From positions 1 through 48,619 of IMG/VR virus record IMGVR_UViG_3300021389_000040: a stretch of DNA of 48,619 nucleotides, one strand, 5' to 3'. The stretch comes from a virus. The translations under genes were made by a program, and so were the position numbers. Below the pieces are notes generated by a model that saw only the letters and a program-made list of their open reading frames with translations, was not told the origin of the DNA and made no database searches. Positions 2,690-38,510 of this stretch are shown here, piece after piece (the first letter of the stretch is position 1; each line of letters begins with the position of its first letter).

Positions 2690-4828
2690 ATGGAAATGAA
2701 CGACAAGCTCACTATTGACGAAGAAGGCTCTTCTTCCCTTTCGGATATTAAAACTGGGGATATGGTAGATAGCCCTTCGGGACAGATTGTATCTTTTGTT
2801 AAAGAACGCTTTGATCGTGCCTCAGACGCTCGTCATGGGGAGGAGGTTCGTTGGCTTCAAGCCTATAGAAACTATCGGGGTATTTACGGACCAGAGGTGC
2901 GGTTCACTGACACAGAAAAGTCTCGTGTTTTTATCAAGGTGACTAAGACCAAGGTTCTTGCAGCCTACGGTCAAATCACCGAAGTGCTCTTTGGTAATAA
3001 CCGTTTCCCCATTTCCATTAACCCTACAGTGCTACCTGATGGGGTTGCAGATACTGTTTATTTCGACACGCAGGCACAGACCTCTGCAATGGCCCAAGGA
3101 GCTGCTCAGGGAGCCCCTGCAAGCCCTACAGGAGGTACTCCAGCAGGGTTGCCTAAGCTGCTCCCAGGAGAGACCATGAGAGGCCTGAAAGAGCGTCTCG
3201 GGGGTCTTACTAAAGAGCTTGAGCCTGTTGCAGATAAGCTAAAAGAGGGTCCTGGTTCGGGCCCAACAGAAGTGGCATTTCATCCAGCCCTTATTTCTGC
3301 AAAGAAGATGGAGAAAAAGGTTCATGACCAGCTTGAAGAATCTAACTCTAAGAAGCACCTAAGGGCTGCAGCTTTTGAGTGTGCTCTCTTTGGTACTGGG
3401 GTGATGAAAGGCCCCTTTGCTGTAGATAAAGAATATCCTAACTGGGACGAAGACGGTACCTACAACCCCACAATTAAAACTGTGGCTGAAACCTCTTATG
3501 TATCCTTGTGGAATTTTTATCCTGATCCCGATGCAACCACTGTAGAAGACTGTGAGTACCTTGTAGAAAGACATAAACTTTCCCGCTCTCAACTGCGTGG
3601 ACTTAAACGCAGACCATACTTCCGGTCTAAAGCTATCGACCTTTCTATCACCCAAGGTGAAAACTATATCCGAGAGTGGTGGGAAGATAGTATGGATGAC
3701 GATGACGATAACCCACGGACAGAGCGTTTTGAGGTTCTAGAGTTTTGGGGTTTTGTAGATGTTGAGACGCTTAAGGGTCATAATGTAGATATTCCACCAG
3801 AGTTGCGTAAGGCGGCTCAGGTTTCTGTAAACATTTGGGTATGTAACGGTAATGTTCTTCGTCTAGTAATGAACCCATTTAAACCCACATACCTCCCTTA
3901 CTACGCAGTGCCATATGAAGTAAACCCCTACAGCCTTTTTGGTGTTGGTGTGGCTGAAAATATGGATGATACCCAACTTCTGATGAATGGCTTTATGCGT
4001 ATGGCCATTGATAATGCGGCCCTTTCAGGCAACCTGCTTATTGAGGTAGATGAATCTAATCTTGTGCCAGGACAAGACCTTACAGTTTCTCCTGGTAAAG
4101 TTTTCCGAAGAGAGGGTGGTGCTCCAGGTCAGGCTATTTTTGGCACCAAGTTCCCTAACGTCTCAAATGAGAACATGCAGATGTTTGACAAAGCAAGACA
4201 GCTTGCAGATGAGTCTACAGGGTTTCCTTCTTTTGCACACGGTCAAACTGGTGTAAGTGGTGTTGGTCGTACCGCATCAGGTATTTCTATGCTGATGAGT
4301 GCAGCTAACGGTTCTATCCGCACGGTAGTAAAAAACTTTGATGACTACCTACTCAACCCTCTTGGTAAAGCCCTCTTCCACTTTAATATGCAATTCAACT
4401 TTGACCCAGAAATCAAAGGTGATCTGGAAGTTAAAGCTGAGGGTACTGAGTCCTTGATGGCTAACGAGGTTCGTAGCCAACGTTTGATGCAGTTCCTCGG
4501 AGTTGTCCAAAACCCTGTACTAGCACCCTTTGCTAAAATGGATTACCTTATCCGTGAGATTGCAAGAAGCATGGATCTTGATCCTGACAAAGTAGCTAAC
4601 TCTATGGGTGCTGCAGCCATTCAAGCTGAGGTCTTAAAAAAGTTCCAAGCGGAAAACCCACAACCTCAGGTAGCTGGTATGCCTGGGGGGGCCCCTCAAC
4701 AGGCCCCAGCTGGGGTCCAAGCGACAGATACTACAGGGTCGGGAGGGGGTAATATTGGAACTGGGTCCGTACCCACACCAGGTGAGCCTGGGTTTAGTGG
4801 GGCTCCTGCTATAGGGGCTATGGGATGA
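2690..4828 (+). CDS. Portal protein
   Basis: The 712-residue product forms the dodecameric ring at the capsid vertex through which DNA is packaged and ejected. Its length matches P22-like or HMO-2011-like podoviral portals. It has a charged N-terminal helix region (VKERFDRASDARHGEEVRW), a central portal core (residues 340-520, with NPFKPTYLPYYAVPYEVNP and GVGVAENMDDTQLLMNGFMR), and a Gly/Pro/Gln-rich C-terminal tail. It starts ten bases after the terminase stop, behind TAAGGA. Its final ATGA overlaps the next gene. Confidence 0.92.
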   Translation: MEMNDKLTIDEEGSSSLSDIKTGDMVDSPSGQIVSFVKERFDRASDARHGEEVRWLQAYRNYRGIYGPEVRFTDTEKSRVFIKVTKTKVLAAYGQITEVLFGNNRFPISINPTVLPDGVADTVYFDTQAQTSAMAQGAAQGAPASPTGGTPAGLPKLLPGETMRGLKERLGGLTKELEPVADKLKEGPGSGPTEVAFHPALISAKKMEKKVHDQLEESNSKKHLRAAAFECALFGTGVMKGPFAVDKEYPNWDEDGTYNPTIKTVAETSYVSLWNFYPDPDATTVEDCEYLVERHKLSRSQLRGLKRRPYFRSKAIDLSITQGENYIREWWEDSMDDDDDNPRTERFEVLEFWGFVDVETLKGHNVDIPPELRKAAQVSVNIWVCNGNVLRLVMNPFKPTYLPYYAVPYEVNPYSLFGVGVAENMDDTQLLMNGFMRMAIDNAALSGNLLIEVDESNLVPGQDLTVSPGKVFRREGGAPGQAIFGTKFPNVSNENMQMFDKARQLADESTGFPSFAHGQTGVSGVGRTASGISMLMSAANGSIRTVVKNFDDYLLNPLGKALFHFNMQFNFDPEIKGDLEVKAEGTESLMANEVRSQRLMQFLGVVQNPVLAPFAKMDYLIREIARSMDLDPDKVANSMGAAAIQAEVLKKFQAENPQPQVAGMPGGAPQQAPAGVQATDTTGSGGGNIGTGSVPTPGEPGFSGAPAIGAMG

Positions 4829-27449: not shown

Positions 27450-27526
27450 TGGTCCTCCCCCCAGGATTCGAACCTGGAACCTGCCGATTAGAAGTCGGCT
27501 GCTCTATCCAATTGAGCTAGGGGAGG
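27450..27526 (-). tRNA. tRNA-Arg (anticodon TCT)
   Basis: The 77-base minus-strand sequence folds into a full cloverleaf. The acceptor is CCTCCCC with GGGGAGG, the D-stem GCTC/GAGC, the anticodon stem GCCGA/TCGGC around CTTCTAA, and the T-arm CCAGG/CCTGG with TTCGAAT. Discriminator A and an encoded CCA end follow. It reads AGA, a codon used often in these genes, so it probably compensates for a host that rarely uses it. Confidence 0.95.
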
Positions 27527-27530
27527 TATC

Positions 27531-27606
27531 TGGCGAAGGTGGCAGGATTTGAACCTGCGATCATGGTTTTGGAGACCACTGCTTTAGGCCACTAAGCTAC
27601 ACCCCC
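27531..27606 (-). tRNA. tRNA-Trp (anticodon CCA)
   Basis: The 76-base minus-strand sequence folds as a cloverleaf. The acceptor is GGGGGTG with CACCTTC (two G-T pairs), the D-stem GCTT/AAGC, the anticodon loop CTCCAAA, and the T-arm GCAGG/CCTGC with TTCAAAT. Discriminator G and an encoded CCA follow. It lies four bases from tRNA-Arg, so the two are probably cut from one transcript. Confidence 0.93.
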
Positions 27607-33195: not shown

Positions 33196-33586
33196 TCTTA
33201 AGGTCAAACACACGGATTTTTCCGCTCCAACGGTAGTACTTTCTCCCCCCATCAATCATGTTTCCATTCTTGAAGCTCTTGTAGTCATGACCATAGCTGC
33301 TGTAGTGTAGTTTGCCATCATCACCTTCTACCATCGCAAACTCAAGGCCCTCTACTTTATCTGCCCCCATGATTACTGGGTGCTTACCCAGCCTACCAAC
33401 ACCAAAGTACTTATTACCAAACTCTGGGTGAGGGGTGTCCCGGTAGTAGACATCCACCGTGAGGCCACCTAGTTCTGATGTACAAATATACCTAACTGGA
33501 ACCCCATCTTTCTCTGTACACAGTTTTGTAATTGTGGCTACATCAAAGAGAGGTTCGTGATGTATTCCATCTGAGGGCTGTGTCAT
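33170..33586 (-). CDS. Hypothetical protein beside thyX
   Basis: The 138-residue protein is beta-rich, with aromatic-Gly stretches (NKYFGVGRLGKHPVIMGAD; KYYRWSGKIRVFD). Its ATG overlaps the thyX stop (ATGA), so it is made together with thymidylate synthase. I recognise no family. Confidence 0.6.
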   Translation of the reverse strand: MTQPSDGIHHEPLFDVATITKLCTEKDGVPVRYICTSELGGLTVDVYYRDTPHPEFGNKYFGVGRLGKHPVIMGADKVEGLEFAMVEGDDGKLHYSSYGHDYKSFKNGNMIDGGRKYYRWSGKIRVFDLKNGEFIERP

Positions 33587-34467
33587 AGAACTCCTTCCAC
33601 TAAGAGTGGTGCAGCTACAGGAAACTGCTTTTTTAGTTCTACATAAACTTTTTCGGCTACATAGCGTGTCTCGGCTTGAGTGTCCTTACCTAACCGAAGT
33701 TTGCACATATTGGCAAAGGCCCCTAGCGTACCACTCCAAGTCCAAGAAGTCATAAGGGACTGTGGAAGCACCATACGGGCTTGTTCGGGCGCAATACCAA
33801 TACCAATCATCCACTGGTATCTGCTAAGAGCCTCCATGTTAAACTCGTGCGTACCTACATCTACACCAACCCATTCTATAGGTTTTGTACTTGCACCGTT
33901 TCCGTCATCAGGGTACTCAACGCTACCTTGCTTAACGTCTTCAGCCTTACCCCTCCAATCAGGTTCATAGAACTCTACATCATCAGTGATATACCTACGT
34001 GAGTACTCACTCATAATGAGGTACTCATGCTTAACCAAGTGTCTAGCTACAAAGATAGGTGCCTTAACCTCAAAGGAAAAGAACCCGTGGTTGAAAGGTG
34101 TATCATGAGTAGGTGTATTGCGCCATGTCCATAGTAGCTCTGTTAGTTTGTCATAATCACACTGCGTATCTCTGTCGTACTCTTCTATAATAGTATCATC
34201 AATACTTGAGTGTAGCTTCTCAAAGTCATCCACAGTCATGCCCCTAGCCAAGAACTCAAGTAACCGTTTGTCTTTGTCCTTAAGTGTATTCTGCGGTGGG
34301 AAGTCACTAAAGTACAGCTTATTATCAATTACCTCAGCTTTTTTTGGCTCAGTATCCCAATCACTACGCTTACCAAAGGAACGGCGGGCAGCATTTGTAA
34401 TTCCTAGGTCGGAACCAGTTGGGGGAACATCAGGATTAAGGACAACTTTTATCTGTTCTTCTTGCAT
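33583..34467 (-). CDS. thyX: Flavin-dependent thymidylate synthase, variant motif
   Basis: The 294-residue enzyme makes dTMP from dUMP with FAD and methylene-tetrahydrofolate. The start GSDLGITNAARRSFGK and the late QARMVLPQSLMTSWTW and RLGKDTQAETR are typical ThyX signatures. The central RHR-x7-S motif reads K-H-E-x7-S (Lys146, His147, Glu148, Ser156), which changes both arginines that normally help bind substrate. With nrdJ it supplies deoxynucleotides. An HNH gene overlaps its start by 32 bases. Confidence 0.88.
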   Translation of the reverse strand: MQEEQIKVVLNPDVPPTGSDLGITNAARRSFGKRSDWDTEPKKAEVIDNKLYFSDFPPQNTLKDKDKRLLEFLARGMTVDDFEKLHSSIDDTIIEEYDRDTQCDYDKLTELLWTWRNTPTHDTPFNHGFFSFEVKAPIFVARHLVKHEYLIMSEYSRRYITDDVEFYEPDWRGKAEDVKQGSVEYPDDGNGASTKPIEWVGVDVGTHEFNMEALSRYQWMIGIGIAPEQARMVLPQSLMTSWTWSGTLGAFANMCKLRLGKDTQAETRYVAEKVYVELKKQFPVAAPLLVEGVL

Positions 34468-35005
34468 TGGGATAATACTTTCTGTGTACCACTTTATTTA
34501 TGACAGTCTTACTAACGCCAAACTTCTCCACTAAGTCCGAAGTAAACCCGTTGGGAGCCTTACGGCCACCAAGCTCAGAATATGCGTCCCTTATGTACCA
34601 AACCTCGTCATCTGTAAGTTTAGCGTTAGTGGATGTAAAGCCCTGTGATCCTCTGGCTATTTTAGCTACCCTAGTCCTACTTTCCTTTGTTTTATCCATC
34701 TCGTTATCAGATGCGGAACCAAGCCTAAGATTTGCTTTACTAAAATCTAGTGTGTTTGCATTTAAGTGCATAACGTGTATGCCTTTATGTAGGGCAGCCT
34801 CATCATACCAGAGGTAACCAGCGAATTTGTGTATAGGCAACCCGTACACCACACCACACCAGTTTGTAGAGAAAGTGGGATACTTCTGTTTTGGGCTTAA
34901 AGATACTTTTAGTATGCCATTAGGCCCATACATTAGCCCACACAAAGTAACGTAATAACCACGATCCTTAGCTTCTCTAAGACGTTGGTGGTATAATTCA
35001 CTCAT
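34436..35005 (-). CDS. HNH homing-type endonuclease next to thyX
   Basis: The 189-residue protein has a nuclease-like core (HVMHLNANTLDFSKANLRLG, about residues 77-96) of the HNH_3 type seen in free-standing phage homing endonucleases. Its C-terminal helix-turn-helix segment (LTDDEVWYIRDAYS, VEKFGVSKTVINKVVH) would provide DNA specificity. It lies between thyX and a short duplicate of the thyX 5' end, which suggests insertion by homing. Confidence 0.75.
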   Translation of the reverse strand: MSELYHQRLREAKDRGYYVTLCGLMYGPNGILKVSLSPKQKYPTFSTNWCGVVYGLPIHKFAGYLWYDEAALHKGIHVMHLNANTLDFSKANLRLGSASDNEMDKTKESRTRVAKIARGSQGFTSTNAKLTDDEVWYIRDAYSELGGRKAPNGFTSDLVEKFGVSKTVINKVVHRKYYPNARRTDKSCP

Positions 35006-35362: not shown

Positions 35363-35911
35363 TCAAAAGGGGATGTCATCGTCTAGATGAGCCGTGGTTG
35401 AAGGTTGGGTGGTAGCTGCGGGGGGTTTAGCAACTGCCTTAGGCGTGGTTGTCGGACCGTCTTCATCTTCGTCTTCATCTTTAACATAGGGTTTGTGCTT
35501 CGTGACCTTAATCTTCTCCAGGCGAGTACCAACGATACCCTTACGAGAGGTGTCGTAGACCGACAAGATGACTTCCCCCTCTGAGCCATTGCCAATGGCG
35601 CCATCCATATCATAGTCCCAAAGCTGACCATCTTCTTTGGTTACAGTTGGTGCCCCACCACCGTAGTTCTCTGTCCACTTGCGAGTAAACTTAACCTTAG
35701 TAAGCCCGTCATTCTCTTGGCTGGGGGAACCCTTCTTCATGGAACGGGCCTTAGCCAGCTTGGCCATGTTCTCCGAGTCCATTTCAACATCAACAGATGT
35801 TTGGCCGCCGATATCTACCAAAGCATTCTCAAACCCAGTCAAGTCGCGATTCTCAGCGAACACTTTCGCCCAGTAGATCAAGCCAGTCAGTTTTACTTTA
35901 CGTGTTGCCAT
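35363..35911 (-). CDS. Single-stranded DNA-binding protein
   Basis: The 182-residue protein has a beta-rich N-terminal OB-like domain (residues 1-135), a low-complexity Thr/Ala/Pro linker, and the acidic C-terminal tail LDDDIPF. That tail is the hallmark by which SSBs of the gp2.5 or bacterial type recruit polymerase and helicase. It lies beside the polymerase, and has its own promoter and AAGGA ribosome binding site. Confidence 0.8.
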   Translation of the reverse strand: MATRKVKLTGLIYWAKVFAENRDLTGFENALVDIGGQTSVDVEMDSENMAKLAKARSMKKGSPSQENDGLTKVKFTRKWTENYGGGAPTVTKEDGQLWDYDMDGAIGNGSEGEVILSVYDTSRKGIVGTRLEKIKVTKHKPYVKDEDEDEDGPTTTPKAVAKPPAATTQPSTTAHLDDDIPF

Positions 35912-35943
35912 TTGTAGCAGTCCTTTGTTTTATCTCATGTGAA

Positions 35944-35973
35944 ATAGTAGCAGGTTTTTTCCGTGGTCGTCAA
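35944..35973 (-). promoter_or_regulatory. Candidate sigma70 promoter for the SSB gene
   Basis: On the minus strand TTGACG (35973-35968), an 18-base spacer and TACTAT (35949-35944) lie between the polymerase C-terminal gene and ssb. The -35 box matches five of six. A separate promoter would explain high SSB expression. Confidence 0.45.
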
Positions 35974-35982
35974 GTGGTTTAG

Positions 35983-36543
35983 TTAATGGATCTCCGAATA
36001 TCTATCCCCGAACTGGGGATCAATGTCTAGAGGAACATTAAGGTTAAGCTTTTTGTTGACCTCTGCGATAGCATCTTTCATTTTGGTCACTACAGCCTCC
36101 CTTGTGCCAAGCTTAACAGGTGTCATGGTCTCGTCGTGGAATTGGGCTACCCCACGAATGCCCTTAGCCCAACAGTGGGCTAACCAACTATCAAAACAAA
36201 ACACACCAGTGCTTTGGTTAAGGCTAGAAAAAACATCTCTCTCATTACGCAAACTGATCCAGAACCTAGATACAGGATTATACAACCACATCTTACCCCC
36301 AATGCGCCTAACCTGAGTCTTATCTGCGACGGCCTTAATGGACCAGTTCATTTTCCAAAAACCCTCAAGTAGTTGGGCCGCATCTGTCTCAGACATGCCT
36401 GTTGACCTAGCAAGCTTTACTTTACCAACTCCGTAGGTCGCGCTGTAGTTTACAACTTTTGCTTTCTTTCTCTCTGAGGAGAGTTGTTTGAACAATCTCT
36501 TTTGATCTTCCTCAGGTAGCTTCTTCATCTCTTCGAGAGTCAT
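35983..36543 (-). CDS. DNA polymerase, C-terminal part (fingers and catalytic palm)
   Basis: This 186-residue piece carries family-A motif B (KKAKVVNYSATYG, residues 26-38) and motif C (QFHDE, His136-Glu138). It lacks the exonuclease and motif A, which are in the gene at 36957-38312. It has its own ATG with GAGG seven to eight bases upstream and overlaps the endonuclease gene by 32 bases. It must pair with the N-terminal part to form an active enzyme. Confidence 0.88.
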   Translation of the reverse strand: MTLEEMKKLPEEDQKRLFKQLSSERKKAKVVNYSATYGVGKVKLARSTGMSETDAAQLLEGFWKMNWSIKAVADKTQVRRIGGKMWLYNPVSRFWISLRNERDVFSSLNQSTGVFCFDSWLAHCWAKGIRGVAQFHDETMTPVKLGTREAVVTKMKDAIAEVNKKLNLNVPLDIDPQFGDRYSEIH

Positions 36544-36967
36544 TCAGATATTTCCTCGCAGATTCTAGTAACTCTTCGCTATCTTGAAATAGTCCAAGTC
36601 CCCTGTTGCAGTTATGGCAGAGTAATCCCCTTGCTTTCCCTGTTTTATGGTCGTGGTCTAAGTTCATACCCGTGACATGATCTTCCCTCATCTTAAATCC
36701 GTGTGTCTTGCATATAGCACAGACACCACCCTGCTCTTCTATCTTACTCAGGACCCAATCCCTAGAAACACCATAAGACCTTTTATAGTGTTTATCTGAA
36801 TAGACTTGACGCCTACATTCATCAGTACAGTAGTGGTGCGATGGTCCGCACGGTTTAAATACTTTACCGCACCACTTGCAACCCTTATCTTTAAAATGTT
36901 TTTGTGGATACTTACTGGGAGCAGCAGTAAAGTCTTTTTCTAAGGTGTTTGTAAATTTAATCCCCAT
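36512..36967 (-). CDS. Endonuclease VII-like HNH homing nuclease inside the polymerase
   Basis: The 151-residue protein has two zinc-binding parts (CKWCGKVF with CTDEC, and CAICK with CHNC) and the catalytic LDHDHKTGKARGLLCHNCN. This is the recombination endonuclease VII/HNH pattern. I chose ATG 36967, behind AAGGAAA, rather than the frame start at 36988. That ATG overlaps the stop of the polymerase N-terminal part. Its position exactly between two polymerase halves marks it as a mobile homing gene. Confidence 0.82.
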   Translation of the reverse strand: MGIKFTNTLEKDFTAAPSKYPQKHFKDKGCKWCGKVFKPCGPSHHYCTDECRRQVYSDKHYKRSYGVSRDWVLSKIEEQGGVCAICKTHGFKMREDHVTGMNLDHDHKTGKARGLLCHNCNRGLGLFQDSEELLESARKYLNDSRRDEEAT

Positions 36968-38312
36968 GAGTTTCCTTATACCAACCATAAAAATCGTACT
37001 CTGATTGTGTAATTCTACCTGCCAAAAGGCTTAGGGTCAAGTGAGGATCAAAACCTGGAACAGACATGTTATCTACGTATTCAGGGTCTAGGGGTTGTAT
37101 GTAGTGTCGTTTAGTCGTGTCTTCAAGAGACACCATATCTGCACCACAGAACTCGTAACCTTCATCTGCAATCAATGCACCACGAACTTCTTTACCCCAA
37201 GCTTTATCAACACCAGGAAGATTTACTAGGGGCTTAGAATGTTTAAACCTCAGGGTGTTAGTAAGCCCAGCAATCTCTGCCCTGACTCTCCCATCAACCT
37301 GCTTGTCTAGCATACCTTGAAAGATTGATAGTCGGTGTTGCAGTACTGTTAATCCGTCGAGGACTTCTACTGCGGGGTCAAATTCCACAAGAACTTTAAC
37401 AGAGGGTGTCAGCTCTCCATCCTTGCGAACTTGGGGTACCATACGCTCAGTACTATCTTCATTTCGTTTGTAGTCAAAGGTGCAGGGCTTCCACCCCAAA
37501 GAGAACAGCCAGTCTTTTACCTGATCCGAAGACCCTGGATTGGCTGCTTCTTCCCCCTTTAGTACCGTTACCTCCTCAGTGTGTGTGCGTTCAAGACCGA
37601 GGTCATCAAGAGTGGCGAACCACCTATCTCCATTAGCAGATGGTGTACCATCTTTTTTAAAGATAACCTTAGGTGGGCTTACTCTTTTATAGAGCTTCCT
37701 TGGGGGCATAACCTGCACCAACTCTGCGTATTTCTCCTCCTGTAACTCCGTCAAAGTAGAAATGCTCTTGTGTACTAGATCTAGGTCAAGTCGAATACCT
37801 ACCTGCTCTTGGTGAGCAGCACAGCGCATTTTGAATGTTAGGTATTGAAGAAATCTATCCATTTCCTCCCTATCTTTGTAGAGAAACTTAAGCTCTTTCA
37901 GCTTCTCTTGCCACAAGCGCCAGTTAATCTTTACGTCTTCCTCGCAGCGGTGTTGGTACTCTTCGGGAGTAAGGCTCTCCCAATCGGTTACAACAGGTTT
38001 TGGAATACCGTAGTCTTCCCCATAACCTTCGAGACCATGCTTTAGTCTGTCATGGTCAAGATACCAACACAAAGGCAGGGTGTCGTAGAGCTTGTGCTTT
38101 GACAGATCTATACTCAAGACCTTCTCAACCACCCTGACGTCAAATCTGATGACGTTATGACCTATGAGGATCTTGTTGTTAGCAAAGAAGTCTTTGATGT
38201 CGTCGTAGTCAAAGAGGCTGTGGTAGTCTTTACCGTCTGTAGTATAGGAGAGCACATGGATCTTAGTCACTTCATCATATAACCCATCACACTCCAAGTC
38301 AAAAACTGCCAC
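36957..38312 (-). CDS. DNA polymerase, N-terminal part (exonuclease and motif A)
   Basis: The 451-residue piece starts with GTG right after the previous stop, behind GGAGGG. The proofreading exonuclease shows DLE at residues 5-7, GHNVIRFD at 51-58 and EEDVKIN at 124-130. The polymerase begins at CGADMVSLED (Asp392, motif A) and the frame stops 59 residues later at YKETHGD. Motifs B and C are in the separate gene at 35983-36543. The two halves total 637 residues, a normal length for the family. Confidence 0.88.
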   Translation of the reverse strand: MAVFDLECDGLYDEVTKIHVLSYTTDGKDYHSLFDYDDIKDFFANNKILIGHNVIRFDVRVVEKVLSIDLSKHKLYDTLPLCWYLDHDRLKHGLEGYGEDYGIPKPVVTDWESLTPEEYQHRCEEDVKINWRLWQEKLKELKFLYKDREEMDRFLQYLTFKMRCAAHQEQVGIRLDLDLVHKSISTLTELQEEKYAELVQVMPPRKLYKRVSPPKVIFKKDGTPSANGDRWFATLDDLGLERTHTEEVTVLKGEEAANPGSSDQVKDWLFSLGWKPCTFDYKRNEDSTERMVPQVRKDGELTPSVKVLVEFDPAVEVLDGLTVLQHRLSIFQGMLDKQVDGRVRAEIAGLTNTLRFKHSKPLVNLPGVDKAWGKEVRGALIADEGYEFCGADMVSLEDTTKRHYIQPLDPEYVDNMSVPGFDPHLTLSLLAGRITQSEYDFYGWYKETHGD

Positions 38313-38510
38313 TTATCCCTCCATAATCTCTGACCTACACACGGTCAGTGTATCTTTATCAAGCCGAGAATGGTAAGCCATAACCTCACCACCTGCAACA
38401 TAAAAGTTCATGCTGTGTATGTTTTGAGTTGGGCAACTTTGAAGATGTCCCAGTGCAACCTTAACAGCTAAAGTTAGTTCTTTTGGTGGTACCGATAAGA
38501 TAAACTTCAT
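38313..38510 (-). CDS. Small protein upstream of the polymerase, unknown function
   Basis: The 65-residue protein MKFILSVPPKELTLAVKVALG ends directly before the polymerase GTG, and its 3' end supplies the polymerase ribosome binding site. It is a small alpha/beta-like protein with no recognised family. Confidence 0.6.
   Translation of the reverse strand: MKFILSVPPKELTLAVKVALGHLQSCPTQNIHSMNFYVAGGEVMAYHSRLDKDTLTVCRSEIMEG

Follow-up and report, generated by a model that had tools for sequence, protein, structure and literature searches.

A T7-like DNA polymerase gene divided between motif A and the O-helix, probably by a mobile homing cassette

The window, i.e., the whole stretch of DNA analysed here, comprises the 48,619 bases of one IMG/VR virus record; among annotated viruses, the Zobellviridae and Roseobacter phage CRP-6 are its nearest relatives. 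Its polymerase region lies on the minus strand and contains, in order, the N-terminal half of a DNA polymerase (N-half), an endonuclease VII (Endo VII)-type gene, and the C-terminal half (C-half), with the following features:

36957..38312 (-): DNA polymerase N-half, 451 aa, GTG start, TAA stop; 3'-5' exonuclease domain, thumb/palm, and motif A (PHROG 17, 8e-67)
37137..37139 (-): motif A aspartate codon (GAD), from alignment to T7 polymerase
36960..37013 (-): split-specific N-tail ITQSEYDFYGWYKETHGD, the closing segment of the N-half, from the count of tail motifs
36512..36967 (-): Endo VII-type (DHHRN) nuclease gene, 151 codons, with an alternative in-frame ATG at 36988 (PF02945, 2.2e-18)
36554..36557 (-): GAGG ribosome binding site of the C-half, within the nuclease gene
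35983..36543 (-): DNA polymerase C-half, 186 aa; fingers O-helix/motif B and palm motif C (PHROG 17, 4e-27; PF00476, 6.1e-13)
36475..36543 (-): split-specific C-tail MTLEEMKKLPEEDQKRLFKQLSS, the opening segment of the C-half, from the motif count and structure prediction
36445..36471 (-): O-helix/motif B RKKAKVVNY (R...K...Y), from alignment to T7 polymerase
36130..36138 (-): motif C HDE, from alignment to T7 polymerase

The N-half has the exonuclease motif FDLECD at its N-terminus and motif A (GADMVSLED) close to its C-terminal end, and the C-half carries the O-helix RKKAKVVNY and motif C HDE. The criteria for a family A (T7-like) polymerase, namely the motif A aspartate, the R..K..Y of the O-helix, the HDE of motif C, and the DxE of the exonuclease, are all fulfilled. 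The matches of the two halves to PHROG 17 adjoin, one reaching up to column 1040 and the other starting from 1042. At this locus, a family A DNA polymerase gene of the T7-like kind is interrupted between motif A and the O-helix. The initial annotation had put the exonuclease and motif A in one frame, motifs B and C in another, and the insertion between motif A and the O-helix; its coordinates, frames, and sum of 637 residues are correct on re-examination, the motifs lie in the halves where it had put them, and its insertion point is supported. It had also proposed that little is lost, and the 637 aa of the two halves, compared with mostly 610–617 aa in intact relatives, indeed indicate no loss and a gain of about 20 residues.

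The three reading frames overlap. The Endo VII-like frame spans 36512–36988(-), the ATG at 36967 being the likely start, and from this codon the nuclease gene overlaps the stop of the N-half by 11 nt. The C-half begins at an ATG in the last part of the nuclease gene, the two overlapping by 32 nt, and GAGG stands 10 nt ahead of this ATG, as expected from the earlier proposal that this half has its own start signals. Slightly downstream of the polymerase there is an HNH_3-type endonuclease gene (34436–35005(-)), which sits between a ThyX-like gene (33583–34467) and a gene at 35363–35911 whose product ends in DDDIPF, like single-stranded DNA-binding protein. The window also has two tRNA genes, Arg (TCT) and Trp (CCA), at 27450–27606(-).

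Besides the window, 19 IMG/VR records have a polymerase gene split at this point, and the catalytic residues are kept in all 20. An identical architecture in 19 further records excludes chance and sequencing error, the latter having been named at the outset as an observation that would refute the split. The comparison with intact relatives, also suggested then, could be made with the 283 intact locus entries recovered by the same searches (entries, not all distinct contigs). The 19 records differ by what stands at the split:

Endo VII-type gene, 11 records: L006, L008, L087, L089, L166, L175, L176, L177, L178, L181, L183
HNH_3-AP2 gene, 4 records: L100, L112, L147, L180
no nuclease gene, 4 records: L179, L182, L184, L185

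L127 was rejected as a split, having only a single in-frame stop, and is not counted. All split genomes are metagenomic contigs; a search for the tails in 50,697 phage records gave no clear split relative, and a scan of species genomes for the C-tail gave no match. No clear ribosome binding site precedes the C-half in L008 and L089.

There is a second fission site in the same gene, at the exonuclease/polymerase boundary. It is found in L006 (2048–2647), L014 (2430–3029), L297 (about 3017–3650), L138 and L140 (3081–3596), L175 (2094 onward), and also L009–L011, and its fillers vary: DNA methyltransferase-like genes (two different), a PAPS-reductase-like gene, an HNH gene, or an unknown 350-aa ORF. 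With both sites occupied, the polymerases of L006 and L175 are in three pieces. At 12 other loci (L274, L275, L277, L280–L283, L286, L288, L290, L291, and L304), the exonuclease and polymerase parts are in two overlapping frames without any insert (gap of 44–47 nt, out of frame), which could mean a natural split of the gene or a programmed frameshift.

The split halves share segments at the break. All split N-halves end in a segment resembling ITQDEYDFYKWY (..FYxWY..), and all split C-halves begin with one resembling MTLEEMKALPxEQQKALYKRI (..EEMKxLP..). The N-tail motif is present in the window and in 37 of 37 split locus entries, and among the 283 intact entries only in one (L269); the C-tail motif is likewise in the window and 37/37 split entries and in none of the 283 intact ones, so that the two together mark 37/37 split and 0/283 intact entries. 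The tails do not differ between splits with an Endo VII gene and splits with an HNH_3-AP2 gene. Most intact relatives have at this place a short linker such as AGVITQEDIDKHNSGERSLKALRKNYK, and longer or intermediate linkers occur in intact L188, L197, L258, L259, and L269. Because intact L269 carries the N-tail motif, part of the tails may derive from an old long linker and not from a new adaptor.

The structural context of the break is given by L092, an intact sister, whose AlphaFold2 model (pLDDT 90.8) has T7 DNA polymerase as its best Foldseek match (1.7e-28). The split site falls in a loop between helices 435–444 and 447–464, the latter being the O-helix. A break in the loop before the O-helix falls within the fingers, so that motif A is on one chain and motifs B and C are on the other. 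The predicted structure of the C-half alone (pLDDT 89) has a short helix in the tail (residues 3–7) and an O-helix that is extended at its start (residues 11–36); the C-tail is thus predicted to lengthen the O-helix. The association of the two halves is inferred.

On a tree of the polymerase core (74 rows, split region omitted), split polymerases are interspersed among intact ones, and a smaller tree agrees. The distribution requires 12 changes between split and intact, at least 9 of them forced by well-supported branches, and such parsimony counts do not distinguish gain from loss. The direction can be inferred from a single pair, L006 (split) and L014 (unsplit at the motif A/O-helix site), which share 98% protein identity over the core. 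Their DNA identity drops sharply at position 3481 of L006 and returns at about 4108: 60/60 bases are identical at 3412–3471 and 42/60 at 3472–3531, then comes the nuclease, then 45/60 at 4072–4131 and 60/60 in each following block. The tract of ~630 bp in L006, standing where L014 has ~143 bp, covers the nuclease gene together with the adjoining ends of both polymerase halves. Homing in which the flanks are co-converted from a diverged donor is expected to leave just this pattern, and a gain by L006 is inferred because L014 shares the short linker of its intact neighbours. This pair is the only direct footprint of homing. The window and L008 have 64% identity in the nuclease and 50% in the polymerase core, which may point to horizontal spread; this is suggestive, not decisive.

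The earlier identification of an Endo VII-like gene of homing type between the halves is sustained by the PF02945 match and the DHHRN signature. The CX2C, DHxH, R, CX2C, N signature is kept in all 11 Endo VII-type rows (the window and 10 relatives), and it is the one of active F-CphI and T4 Endo VII (PMC6083498). The nuclease meets the definition of the DHHRN (Endo VII) homing endonuclease family; its site-specific cleavage and homing are inferred, with only the footprint in L006 and L014 to support them. Two unrelated nuclease types, Endo VII and HNH_3-AP2, are found at the one split site, and the split can also outlive the nuclease. L178 and L179 have 77% and 74% DNA identity in two blocks, and L179 has lost some two thirds of the nuclease gene, the remaining 3' end holding the start of the C-half. 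This loss apparently arose by deletion between two short GCTAGA-containing repeats. Nuclease loss with retention of the split is thus seen at the sequence level in L179, and it is supported in L182, L184, and L185, where short spacers resemble the end of the AP2-type gene, as in L180. Between L178 and L179, dN/dS is 0.09 in each half (0.07–0.12 in intact controls), so both polymerase halves are under purifying selection in the pair measured. The proposal that the active site is built from two polypeptides follows from the anatomy of the locus and from this selection; it remains an inference, without experimental data.

One might suppose that the nuclease gene lies inside a group I intron that is spliced from the polymerase mRNA, as in Yersinia phage Berlin and LUZ24. 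Endo VII-type genes are known in group I introns of T7-like polymerase genes (PMC6083498), and Escherichia phage Bas94 (L170) has an annotated joined polymerase CDS that contains an Endo VII gene. The Bas94 insert breaks the O-helix and leaves some 270 nt outside the ORF, as an intron would, whereas all 413 nt between the halves of the window are coding, with ORFs overlapping on both sides. The C-half has its own start, its tail, and usually a ribosome binding site, and the separate frames persist in splits that lack the nuclease. A search of Rfam with window positions 35900–38400 found no RNA family at E ≤ 1, and none of the other split loci searched has an Rfam intron at the gathering score near the split. 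The catalytic core that would define a group I intron is therefore not met, for want of both an Rfam match and non-coding space; the initial annotation had reasoned in the same way that no room is left for a typical one, and we regard splicing as highly improbable. L008 does have an Rfam group I intron (7–234, 87.8 bits), upstream of its split polymerase and not at the split. An intein or split intein was also rejected, as the halves are in different frames with stops and the ~18–23 extra residues per side are too short. That the nuclease has inactivated the polymerase gene, and that another polymerase replicates the genome, is hardly credible: the reading frame is broken, but both halves are complete, with catalytic residues and start signals intact, across 20 records, dN/dS is about 0.09, and no second family A polymerase was found in the window record. 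Nor was a full-length second polymerase copy, besides the split pieces, found in eight split records.

A single ancient split, inherited vertically, with the intact relatives arising by re-fusion, is harder to dismiss, though still unlikely. It would account for the identical site and tails of all splits, the intermediate linkers of intact L188, L197, L258, L259, and L269 can be read as re-fusions, and parsimony cannot separate gain from loss. Yet re-fusion would have to recreate the same short linker many times, and the ordinary short linker of L014, shared with its neighbours, against the diverged tract with its flanks in the near-twin L006 fits acquisition by L006. The tree and this pair both speak against a single vertical origin, without formally excluding it.

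We therefore consider it probable that a mobile homing cassette has turned this family A DNA polymerase into a case of "genes in pieces". Of the two criteria for such a case, the first is fulfilled, since a nuclease gene separates two ORFs of one conserved enzyme of which intact relatives exist; for the second, assembly of the halves into an active enzyme, the purifying selection on both halves is only indirect evidence. The putative cassette would consist of the terminator tail of the N-half, a free-standing Endo VII-type gene, and the C-half start codon with its adaptor tail. When a split donor and an intact relative infect the same cell, the donor's nuclease would cut the relative's polymerase gene near the motif A/O-helix junction, as inferred from its family and from the pattern of the tract, and repair would copy the nuclease gene and its flanks into the recipient, turning an intact polymerase into a split one, as the sequences of L006 and L014 show. 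One mRNA may then serve the three overlapping ORFs; the start codon and ribosome binding site from which the C-half would be read are visible in the last part of the nuclease gene, and expression is inferred. The two polypeptides would presumably join non-covalently into a T7-like polymerase, uniting motif A with motifs B and C, with the help of the tails. Later the nuclease can be lost while the split stays, for which L179 gives the sequence evidence and L182, L184, and L185 give support. That the cassette supplies the segments through which the halves reassemble is inferred, such assembly not having been demonstrated, and the mechanism has no expression, protein, or cleavage data behind it. 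What the initial annotation could not see is the recurrence and mobility of the split, its specific tails, the second nuclease family, and its survival after nuclease loss. A bolder reading, which we hold to be as easily wrong as right, is that mobility belongs to the split as a whole and not to the nuclease gene alone. Two unrelated nuclease families would then share one portable gene-fission cassette, comprising a stop, a start, and two assembly adaptors, which would make a two-subunit enzyme of the intact polymerase in each lineage it enters and leave the gene split after the nuclease decays.

Homing endonuclease genes are known to split essential phage genes, e.g., nrdA of Aeh1 by mobE, T4 gene 60 by mobA, and gene 43 of phage 25 (PMC2988022). 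The nrdA/mobE locus of Aeromonas phage Aeh1, known to us through secondary accounts, resembles the window in that a free-standing homing endonuclease gene makes two ORFs of an essential phage gene, and its halves assemble into an active enzyme (Friedrich 2007, Crona 2011, via PMC2988022 and PMC3267527); the title of Crona 2011 refers to interaction domains derived from the mobile element (via PMC3267527). The enzyme, nuclease family, and phage group are different there, and as far as these accounts go, it is the window's split that recurs in many lineages, shows a transfer footprint, has either of two nuclease types at the same site, and persists in descendants without a nuclease. Aeromonas phage 25 also has a two-piece DNA polymerase with a homing (seg-like) gene between 43A and 43B, which co-purify and are active, but it is a family B enzyme (PolB) in which an untranslated spacer may have split the gene first (PMC2988022). 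In the OM43 phages MEP401 and MEP402, a Zobellviridae-related family A polymerase is split by a small ORF of 78 codons and unknown kind, which the authors suspected to be an intron (PMC10580990); by our reading of L169, the break in MEP401 is upstream of motif A and leaves motifs A, B, and C on one chain. F-CphI and the intron-encoded Endo VII homing endonucleases share the family signature of the window's nuclease, and several target T7-like polymerase genes, but they are intron-borne or intron-associated, whereas the window's nuclease splits the coding sequence directly (PMC6083498). In the open-access literature we found no earlier report of this split site, of a fission cassette with shared tails and two nuclease families, or of its recurrent transfer. 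Homing-gene splitting of phage genes and split family A polymerases are thus known; the site, the shared-tail cassette, and the recurrent transfer are, within that literature, without an earlier report.

Functional split genes of this sort can be masked by annotations such as "DNA polymerase, partial" or "intron". The split also suggests a place in the fingers where T7-like polymerases tolerate a cut, which is of use in the design of split polymerases. Finally, L014/L006 for the gain and L178/L179 for the loss of the nuclease are natural before/after pairs, which bear on how a selfish gene turns a one-chain into a two-chain enzyme and on the long-standing question of the origins of split proteins and multi-subunit enzymes.
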